Source: Alphaproteobacteria bacterium
GTDB lineage: Bacteria > Pseudomonadota > Alphaproteobacteria > Caulobacterales > Aquidulcibacteraceae
Direction: 5' to 3'
Length of the DNA stretch: 33,916 bases
NCBI GenBank assembly: GCA_018969015.1
Contig: JAGWZE010000015.1
Coordinates: forward strand, 1 to 33,916
The translations under genes and the position numbers were made by a program. Positions 7,265 to 9,715 of this stretch are shown here, in pieces. The notes beneath the pieces were generated by a model, which did not search any database, was not told where the DNA came from, and saw nothing but the letters and a program-made list of their open reading frames with translations. Numbering within the stretch: position 1 is the first letter of the stretch; each line of letters begins with the position of its first letter.

Positions 7265-8134
7265 CTAGGGCCGCATCGCGCCGACGGCCATGTTGTCGAT
7301 CAGCCGCGTCTCGCCGGCGCGCACGGCCACGAGCAGGCGCGCGGGGCGGCGCACGATCGGGCTTGCGATCGGCAGGAAATCGTCCTCGCCGCGAATGGCG
7401 ACATAGTCGATCTCGCTGAACCCGGCCTTGAAGATCTGGCGCTCGATCTTCACCAGCGTCGTCATGATGTTCGCGCCGGACTCCAGCTGCTCGACCGCCT
7501 CGCGCAGGATCACGTTGAGCCGCGCCGCGACGATCCGCTCTTCCGGCGAGAGGTAGGCGTTGCGCGAGGACATCGCGAGCCCGTCGGCTTCGCGCGTCGT
7601 CGGCACGCCCATGATCTCCACCGGCATATCGAGATCGCGCACCATGCGCTTCACCACCAGCAGCTGCTGGTAGTCCTTCTCGCCGAAGGCCGCGACATCG
7701 GGCAGGCACTGCAGCAGCAGCTTCGTCACGACCGTGGCGACGCCGCCGAAGAAGTGCGGACGGGCCTCCCCTTCCAGGGGCTCGGACACGCCGGCCACCG
7801 AGACGCTGGTGGAGTGGCCGTCCGGATACATCACCTCGCGCGGCGGCGCGTAGAGCAGGTCGCAGCCGGCGCTGGCGAGCTTGGCGGCGTCGCCGGCCTC
7901 GTCGCGGGGATAGCGGTCGAGGTCCTCGTGCGCGGCGAACTGCTTCGGGTTCACGAAGATGCTGGCGATCGTGCGGTCGCAGCGGCCCTTGAGCGCGCGG
8001 ATCAGATCGAGGTGGCCGTCATGAAGGGCGCCCATCGTCGGCGCGAAGCCCACGGTGAGGTTCTGGTTGCGCCAGCGCGCCACGTAGGTGCGCAGTTCGC
8101 GGACGGAGCGGGCGATCGGCAATGTGTCGGTCAT
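7265..8134 (-). CDS. panC: Pantothenate synthetase
   Basis: 289 aa, full length for PanC. The nucleotidyltransferase HxGH motif is in MGALHDGHL (H38, H41), FGEKDYQQL is at 150-158 and the KMSKS-equivalent MSSRN at 188-192. The enzyme joins pantoate and beta-alanine with ATP in the cytosol to make pantothenate, the coenzyme A precursor. panB is not beside it. The promoter must lie in the short divergent gap 8135-8180, where a CtrA box begins only 8 nt from the panC start codon. Confidence 0.95.
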   Translation of the reverse strand: MTDTLPIARSVRELRTYVARWRNQNLTVGFAPTMGALHDGHLDLIRALKGRCDRTIASIFVNPKQFAAHEDLDRYPRDEAGDAAKLASAGCDLLYAPPREVMYPDGHSTSVSVAGVSEPLEGEARPHFFGGVATVVTKLLLQCLPDVAAFGEKDYQQLLVVKRMVRDLDMPVEIMGVPTTREADGLAMSSRNAYLSPEERIVAARLNVILREAVEQLESGANIMTTLVKIERQIFKAGFSEIDYVAIRGEDDFLPIASPIVRRPARLLVAVRAGETRLIDNMAVGAMRP

Positions 8135-8141
8135 CCGCCGT

Positions 8142-8156
8142 TTAAGGCCGCCTTAA
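8142..8156. promoter_or_regulatory. Putative CtrA binding box (TTAA-N7-TTAA)
   Basis: TTAA at 8142-8145 and TTAA at 8153-8156 are separated by exactly 7 nt (GGCCGCC), the full consensus for the alphaproteobacterial cell-cycle regulator CtrA. The core is also an inverted repeat (TTAAGG-CCG-CCTTAA). It sits between panC and the SPOR-like/mipZ operon, 25 nt before the latter's GTG. A GAGTC (a GANTC site for CcrM methylation) is at 8170-8174. Binding is inferred from the consensus only. Confidence 0.55.
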
Positions 8157-8180
8157 GGGCTTTCCGCAAGAGTCCGTCTC

Positions 8181-8861
8181 GTGGTTGGCGTGCGACATTC
8201 GCGATTCGGGACCGTCGCGGCCGTGGCGGCGGTAAGCGTGCTGTCCGGCGCGACGAGCGGCTGCGCCACCTACAAAGTTCTCACCGATCCGGAAGCTGCG
8301 GCCGCTTTCGCGCCGCGCAAGCCCGCGCCGGCCGAGGCGCCGACGCCGGCGCCGCACCACGATCTCGCCGCCCGCGCGGCCGCATTGGTCGCCGAACTCG
8401 ATCGTCTGCCGTCCTTCGATCCGGAGCGCCGCGCGGCCGAACCCGTGCTGGTGGCGCTCGCGGCCAAGATCGCTGCGGGCCTCGGCGACCCGATCGAGTC
8501 CGCGGATCTCGACGCCTTCGACGTGCCTGCCGTCGAGTATGTGCAGATCGCCGATCTCAGCGCGCCGCCGGCCGCTTTGGTCGCCGCGCCGCCCGAAAAT
8601 CCCTGGGCTGTTGAGTTCGGCGAGTTCGACGACGCCGAACTGGCGAAAGCGATGTGGCTGGAGATCGCCGCCGCCGCGCCGGACGCCGCCCGCGGCCTCA
8701 GCCCGCGCGTGGTCGCGCGCGGCGAGGGCGTCATCCTGCGCGCCGGCCCGCTCGACGATCGTGATCAGGCCGCCGTCGCCTGCCAGGGCTTCGAAACCGC
8801 GGGCGTCTCGTGTGCGCCGGCCAAGCTCGCCGGCAAACCCTTGATGGAGCCGGGCGGATGA
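8181..8861 (+). CDS. Probable envelope protein with signal/lipobox-like N-terminus and SPOR-like C-terminus
   Basis: 226 aa from GTG 8181 (an in-frame GTG at 8190 is possible; neither has a clear SD). A basic start and hydrophobic stretch (about 8-27) end in TSGC with Cys28, an imperfect lipobox, so a lipoprotein or secreted protein is likely. A Pro/Ala-rich linker (43-60) and an acidic, Ala-rich middle follow. The end (about 176-218) has the spacing of a SPOR repeat: a basic beta strand, a GPL turn, a DRDQAAVAC helix and a second strand with GVSC. SPOR domains bind denuded peptidoglycan at division sites; this copy is degenerate and the call is an inference. Its stop overlaps mipZ by ATGA. 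Confidence 0.6.
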   Translation: MVGVRHSRFGTVAAVAAVSVLSGATSGCATYKVLTDPEAAAAFAPRKPAPAEAPTPAPHHDLAARAAALVAELDRLPSFDPERRAAEPVLVALAAKIAAGLGDPIESADLDAFDVPAVEYVQIADLSAPPAALVAAPPENPWAVEFGEFDDAELAKAMWLEIAAAAPDAARGLSPRVVARGEGVILRAGPLDDRDQAAVACQGFETAGVSCAPAKLAGKPLMEPGG

Positions 8862-9715
8862 CGGTCGAAACGCCGACGCCCCCGATCGTCGCCGCGCACG
8901 TCATCGTCGCCGGCAATGAGAAAGGCGGCGCCGGCAAGTCGACGGTCGCCATGCACGTTGCGGTTGCGCTGGCCCGGATGGGGCGCCGCGTTGGCGCGAT
9001 CGATCTCGACGTTCGCCAGCGCACCTTCAGCCGCTATCTGGAAAATCGCCGCGCCTGGGCCGAGAGCCGGGGCCTGCCGCTCGTGATGCCGACGATCGCG
9101 TCCGTCAGCCCGAGCGGCCTGCGCGACGTCGACGCCGCCGAGGCCGAGGACGAGCGCCGCTTCGACACCGCGCTGCGGTCTCTGGCCGAGACTTGCCAGT
9201 TCATCGTCATCGATGCGCCGGGCGCCGACACGTTCCTATCGCGCTGCGCCCACGCCGCCGCCGACACGCTCATCTCGCCGATGAACGACAGCTTCGTCGA
9301 CTTCGACCTCCTAGGCGACGTCGATCCCGAAACCTTCGCCGTTCGCCGCCCCAGCCTCTACGCCGAGCTCGTCTGGGAGTGCCGAAAGCGCAAGGCCGCG
9401 CGTGCGCGCCGGCCGATCGATTGGGTCGTGATGCGCAACCGCATGGCGCCGGGGATCGAAAGCCGCAACCGCCAGCGGCTCGGCGATGCGCTGAAGGCCT
9501 TGTCCTCGCGCGTCGGCTTCCGCGTCGCGCCGGGCCTGTCCGAGCGGGTGATCTTCCGCGAGCTGTTCCCCAAAGGCCTCACGCTGCTCGATCTCGAGCC
9601 TGGCGTCGCCGATCAGGGCATGACCATCGCCCACGTCGCCGCCCGCCAGGAACTGCGCGACCTGATGATCGTGCTCAAACTGCCGGGGCTCGACGGCGAG
9701 CCGCTGCGCTTCTAA
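8858..9715 (+). CDS. mipZ: Division-plane positioning ATPase MipZ
   Basis: 285 aa ParA/MinD-family ATPase. HVIVAGNEKGGAGKSTVAMH (14-33) holds the deviant Walker A motif (KGGAGKST, 22-29). IDLDVRQRTFSRYLENRRAW, the internal PMNDSFVDFDLLGDVDP block and GFRVAPGLSERVIFRELFP are the segments that separate MipZ from plasmid ParA proteins. In Caulobacter, MipZ forms gradients from the ParB-parS poles and inhibits FtsZ polymerisation so that division occurs at midcell. Here it is translationally coupled to an upstream SPOR-like envelope protein, and a J-domain protein follows after 9 nt. A CtrA box upstream would tie the operon to the cell cycle. Confidence 0.93.
   Translation: MTVETPTPPIVAAHVIVAGNEKGGAGKSTVAMHVAVALARMGRRVGAIDLDVRQRTFSRYLENRRAWAESRGLPLVMPTIASVSPSGLRDVDAAEAEDERRFDTALRSLAETCQFIVIDAPGADTFLSRCAHAAADTLISPMNDSFVDFDLLGDVDPETFAVRRPSLYAELVWECRKRKAARARRPIDWVVMRNRMAPGIESRNRQRLGDALKALSSRVGFRVAPGLSERVIFRELFPKGLTLLDLEPGVADQGMTIAHVAARQELRDLMIVLKLPGLDGEPLRF

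Follow-up and report, generated by a model that had tools for sequence, protein, structure and literature searches.

A predicted CtrA-binding palindrome before the mipZ unit, kept across the Terricaulis/Aquidulcibacter family

MipZ is a determinant of the place and the timing of the division ring. In the available text of PMC4287350, transcription of mipZ in C. crescentus is described from a constitutive promoter, P1, and a cell-cycle regulated promoter, P2, with a CtrA half motif of the repressor class at the -10 of P2; flagellar genes are among the CtrA targets given there for this organism. The C. crescentus mipZ promoter carries two juxtaposed GANTC sites (PMC3667746, available text), and both GcrA binding to this promoter and its activity depend on them according to the available portions of PMC3667746 and PMC3708114. 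For H. neptunium, the CtrA motif is given as TTAA-N7-TTAAC and mipZ is reported to lie outside the direct CtrA regulon in the accessible part of PMC7200025. The name mipZ does not occur in the accessible part of one comparative paper, PMC2877005, and a literature search made mostly among papers open without subscription found no comparison of CtrA boxes at mipZ across the Terricaulis/Aquidulcibacter family.

The window, the whole stretch of 33,916 nucleotides that was analysed, carries a mipZ gene preceded by a gene for a SPOR-domain protein, and panC lies divergently on the other side of a short gap. The features of this region are as follows.

7265..8134, minus strand: panC, pantoate--beta-alanine ligase (PF02569, Pantoate_ligase, 322 bits; TIGR00018, 275 bits, over cut-off)
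8135..8180, no strand: divergent gap of 46 nt from panC to the first open SPOR start
8142..8156, no strand: CtrA-type full box TTAA-N7-TTAA, a palindrome with 7-bp arms and one centre base; position kept in relatives
8170..8174, no strand: GAGTC, a CcrM-type GANTC, 13 nt behind the second TTAA; not kept in most relatives
8181..8861, plus strand: SPOR-domain protein, first gene of the mipZ unit (PF05036, 29.4 bits, cut-off 21)
8203..8207, no strand: GATTC, a second GANTC, just within the 5' end of the SPOR gene
8858..9715, plus strand: mipZ, division-plane positioning ATPase (PF09140, 376 bits; matches solved MipZ 2xj4, E 2.3e-83)

The panC ATG is at 8134-8132 on the minus strand and 7 nt separate it from the box. 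The first open start of the SPOR gene is GTG 8181, with an in-frame alternative at GTG 8190, and the N-terminus of its product is lipoprotein-like (signal judged by eye). The SPOR stop (8859-8861) overlaps the mipZ ATG (8858-8860).

The family sample comprises 60 species in 14 genera (g1 to g14), and the genus of the window, g1, is represented by one species. By loci identical to named records, g14 groups with Terricaulis and g2 with Aquidulcibacter. The Hyphomicrobiales frame of the earlier note was rejected; the host is a Caulobacterales genus of the Terricaulis/Aquidulcibacter family. A 2025 proposal unites Aquidulcibacter, Pseudaquidulcibacter, Terricaulis and Vitreimonas in the family Aquidulcibacteraceae, sister to Hyphomonadaceae (PMC12700997, available text), and the window appears to belong to this family.

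The gap contains TTAAGGCCGCCTTAA, which is TTAA-N7-TTAA, a CtrA-type full box, at 8142-8156 of the window. The earlier note had described a perfect TTAA-N7-TTAA in a 46-nt divergent gap and no other full one in the intergenic regions scanned; the match is exact, and it is the sole one in the whole window even when one mismatch is allowed. Shuffles of the window gave, at up to one mismatch, a mean of 0.15 matches, with at least one match in 14 of 100 shuffles, and the window by itself is therefore not decisive. Across the genome (G000, 3,398,043 bases) the exact box occurs five times and the reversed control AATT-N7-AATT four times; by arithmetic from the genome density, the chance of an exact box in a given 46-bp gap is about 7e-5. 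The base after the second TTAA is G on the plus strand and A on the minus strand, so that the window box differs from TTAA-N7-TTAAC by one mismatch in either orientation. A C follows the second TTAA in all 38 relatives' boxes that were counted, and the window is the one of 39 without it. The box had earlier been called a consensus; owing to the missing C, only the two TTAA halves merit this term, and the window box may be weaker than those of its relatives.

mipZ loci were read in 58 of the 60 family genomes; G042 and G048, which have no real mipZ match, were dropped, and contig ends truncate L034 and L059. In 49 of the 58 loci panC and mipZ are divergent. In 35 of the 58, an exact TTAA-N7-TTAA stands in the panC-mipZ interval or within 1.5 kb upstream of mipZ; loss of the box in close relatives had been named as the finding that would speak against the site, and the box is retained. 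It was found in all loci of g1 (1/1), g3 (4/4), g4 (1/1), g10 (1/1), g11 (1/1) and g13 (3/3) and in 24 of the 28 loci of g14, where a contig end truncates one of the four loci that lack it. No exact box was found at the mipZ loci of g2, g5, g6, g7, g8 (5 loci), g9 and g12.

At exact match the spacing is specific, as spacers of N3-N12 other than 7 matched in 1 of 58 loci. A second count was made on the box-bearing genera group with divergent panC (38 loci of g1, g3, g4, g9, g12, g13 and g14), and here the box lies at most about 260 bp from panC in 31 of 38 loci when exact and in 35 of 38 at up to one mismatch. The spacing control is unclean at this tolerance (N5 21/38, N6 18/38 and N8 8/38, versus 35/38 for N7), and the single g12 locus has no match even at up to one mismatch. 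In 27 loci of Terricaulis (g14), the half-site columns keep their main base at 0.93-1.00, versus flank means of 0.60 and 0.62; this comparison was anchored on the box, which favours the box, and the unanchored exact count is 24 of 27.

Rearranged loci separate the box from one of its two neighbours. Upstream of mipZ, the box stands at 57 bp in L008, 113 bp in L045 and 118 bp in L044, and panC is more than 1 kb from the box in L008 and L045 and was not found in L044. In these three loci the box tracks mipZ and not panC. A degenerate TTAA-N7-TTTA is seen near panC, more than 1 kb from mipZ, in 10 of 10 loci with panC in g2, g5 and g7. Behind this sequence, an unrelated, secreted-looking ORF of about 320-400 residues is present between panC and mipZ in L053-L058 and L060-L063. 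On the MipZ tree, g1 adjoins g13 (support 93/77, below star level), and the box label needs 5 changes as compared with 20.7 in shuffles, with 0 of 500 as low; one of the 5 changes is an artefact, L088 being unlabelled though identical to the box-bearing L023. The tree omits four of the five g8 rows, L034, L069, L071 and rows of less than 200 residues.

Similarity to the window protein revealed a SPOR-type gene between panC and mipZ in g9; such a gene is present in 11 of 80 named loci, including Maricaulis and Euryhalocaulis. By the same similarity it was not found in g3, g4, g10, g13 and g14, where the box stands directly before mipZ. This spread over genera suggests that the SPOR gene was ancestral between panC and mipZ and was lost in several genera.

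The genome encodes CtrA (NF045991, 421 bits, cut-off 350), whose receiver domain aligns along its length with the solved CtrA receiver domain (PDB 4qpj). GcrA is also encoded (PF07750, 172 bits, over cut-off), as is a CcrM-type methylase with N6_N4_Mtase and RAMA domains, which scores 625 bits with the CcrM model NF050803, below the Caulobacter cut-off of 830. About 270 bp before the gcrA match, a one-mismatch CtrA-type site containing GATTC is seen (L192, G000:C26:60518-60533).

Two of the four other exact boxes in the genome lie between divergent flagellar genes. One is between the fliP-side operon (FliP, 271 bits) and a flgB-type gene, named from a rod-protein domain at 24 bits with the FlgB models below their cut-offs; the other is between flgI (475 bits) and fliX (81 bits). 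Of the remaining two, one is located between an LpxR-type gene and a hybrid histidine kinase gene; the other follows a reading frame that looks phoH-like by eye and precedes a diacylglycerol-kinase-type gene by 141 bp. The kinase gene, of 676 residues, has its exact box 45 bp upstream (L075 3050-3064, G000:C42). Sites with up to one mismatch occur at 66 distinct places genome-wide, including 7 on C35, the flagellar contig of 31 kb; since 3 of these 7 are inside chosen ORFs, this wider spread was not used as proof.

Judged from the compared sequences, the 15-bp palindrome is probably a site for CtrA binding within the promoter region ahead of the SPOR-lipoprotein/mipZ unit, kept across the Terricaulis/Aquidulcibacter family. 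We infer that CtrA binds the mipZ box and affects transcription from it.

An alternative that we consider unlikely is that the box is a CtrA site serving panC, or is silent for mipZ, and that the timing of mipZ comes from elsewhere. GTCAA, which reads TTGAC on the panC strand and is -35-like, occurs no more than 12 bp from the box, towards panC, in 26 of 27 loci of g14, 4 of 4 of g3 and 1 of 1 of g9; with TTGAC beside it in 31 of these 32 loci, the box neighbours a possible panC promoter. The same alternative draws on a wider sample of the order, for which 60 genomes were taken from the 151 that gave a match (20 of f3, 12 of f2, 11 of f4 and 17 of f5). In the Hyphomonadaceae-like family f2 (Hyphomonas/Henriciella-like), a box near panC is exact in 4 of 12 loci and present at up to one mismatch in 12 of 12, and it is closer to panC (25-131 bp) than to mipZ (about 580-810 bp); another ORF separates the box from mipZ in named Hyphomonas-type loci. 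The published exclusion of mipZ from the direct CtrA regulon of H. neptunium (PMC7200025, accessible part) points the same way. It also counts against the earlier proposal that the mipZ unit is under CtrA, which the conserved box (35/58), the encoded CtrA and the flagellar boxes favour. Against a panC site, TTGAC is absent from the window and from g13, its nearest genus, and the window box would sit on a panC promoter, not before it. As a main target panC is disfavoured by L008, L044 and L045, in which the box stays with mipZ.

It is unlikely, too, that the GANTC sites (GcrA/CcrM) are the working element, as at C. crescentus mipZ, with the TTAA pair secondary. In 20 of 20 loci of the Caulobacteraceae-like f3, GANTC occurs within 120 bp upstream of mipZ, versus 0.57 per kb in the rest of these loci. 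The published GANTC dependence of the C. crescentus promoter (PMC3667746, PMC3708114, available text), the GcrA and CcrM-type methylase encoded in the genome of the window, and the TTAA-N13-GAGTC spacing that the window shares with L051 and L052 of g3 (by eye) are all consistent with such a role. The GAGTC and GATTC of the earlier note are indeed present at their places in the window; conservation did not bear them out. Any GANTC occurs in 8 of 33 short gaps of g3, g4, g13 and g14, at 2.39 per kb versus 2.14 per kb in mipZ coding sequence, and GANTC was rejected as a conserved element of the family, being near background in these 33 gaps. At the window density of 1.0 per kb, about 5% of 46-bp gaps should contain one GANTC. 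Over the whole window GANTC is strongly under-represented, with 34 occurrences versus 169 in dinucleotide shuffles.

The two signals are distributed unevenly over the order. The box is exact in 1 of 20 loci of f3 and present at up to one mismatch in 4 of 20, the exact one being that of the C. crescentus-like genome G152. The MipZ of G152 agrees with PDB 2xj4, which we take to be C. crescentus MipZ, at 269 of 270 aligned residues. In f2, 7 of 12 loci have GANTC within 120 bp upstream of mipZ. No box was found in the 11 loci of f4 (Maricaulaceae-like, Euryhalocaulis-like), where GANTC occurs before mipZ in 1 of 11 and adjoining panC in 8 of 10; f5 has GANTC in 8 of 17 and an exact box in 2 of 17. 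A strict rule by which the box replaces GANTC is weakened by G152, which has both signals, and also by f2, in which 7 of 12 loci with GANTC stand beside 12 of 12 with a box at up to one mismatch. At E 1e-50, no MipZ match was found in 9 of 160 order genomes (G074, G078, G082, G117, G121, G137, G145, G153 and G181), all of f4 (g24, g34, g39) and at least 99% complete; the protein is lost or strongly diverged in them.

That a factor other than CtrA reads TTAA-N7-TTAA seems very unlikely. A motif alone names no factor, and the genome has 52 response-regulator-like matches to the CtrA model; against this, the conserved part, TTAA-N7-TTAAC with a variable centre, is the CtrA motif published in the accessible part of PMC7200025, and CtrA is present. 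A chance palindrome in GC-rich DNA, for which the shuffled matches and the near-equal reversed control could be cited, is scarcely credible against a box that recurs in the corresponding position in 35 of 58 loci of the family versus 4-14 exact boxes per whole genome in the GC-rich genera of the family, and against the placing of other exact boxes at flagellar genes.

With CtrA control of the mipZ unit as the preferred reading, phosphorylated CtrA would probably bind the box as a dimer, and the bound protein would tie the timing of expression of MipZ, the division-site regulator, to the cell cycle. If CtrA activates, the second half-site would act at -35 and the message would start near 8188-8193, so that the SPOR gene would be read from GTG 8190, nearly leaderless. 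If CtrA represses, as published for P2 of C. crescentus mipZ, the box would lie over or behind the -10. Either arrangement agrees with the window sequence, and we lean slightly towards activation at the window box. With the panC start 7 nt from the box, bound CtrA would crowd that start as well. The occlusion of panC suggested in the earlier note is possible on this geometry, and would be a by-product of this genome and not a feature of the family, because the boxes of relatives with a short gap are 19-101 bp from panC. The box is thus the strong part of what had been claimed; GANTC and panC occlusion are its weak parts, and the taxon has been corrected.

The sequence before mipZ is a genuine CtrA-type site that has been conserved; it most likely works for the mipZ unit and is of a kind already known. 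The window resembles the divergent flagellar CtrA promoters of the fliX/flgI type in having a full box between divergent genes, as do 2 of the 5 exact boxes of this genome, and differs from them in that their targets are flagellar and not a division-site regulator. With the H. neptunium CtrA regulon it shares the motif class, in a sister family whose f2 sites match at up to one mismatch in 12 of 12 loci; unlike here, mipZ is placed outside the direct regulon there (PMC7200025, accessible part), and the f2 site is about 580-810 bp from mipZ.

A further close likeness is to the C. crescentus mipZ promoter, where mipZ is under CtrA, GcrA and CcrM. The literature gives a CtrA half motif for this promoter; in G152 a full TTAA-N7-TTAA lies 59 bp before the mipZ match start and abuts two GANTC sites (L202). 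Both signals at mipZ are therefore not new. The window differs in having a SPOR gene between panC and mipZ and in its GANTC, which is 13 nt behind the box and does not abut it as in G152; in the family of the window, the box and not GANTC is the conserved element. It is possible, though we hold this only tentatively, that mipZ control has been rewired in Caulobacterales, with methylation-dependent GcrA/CcrM sites in Caulobacteraceae and, in the Terricaulis/Aquidulcibacter family, a full CtrA box that kept its place through the loss of the SPOR gene; the window genus and the C. crescentus-like genomes, with both signals, would then be intermediate. The family-wide full CtrA box and the Caulobacteraceae GANTC offer a natural contrast for a change of master regulator at a core division gene.
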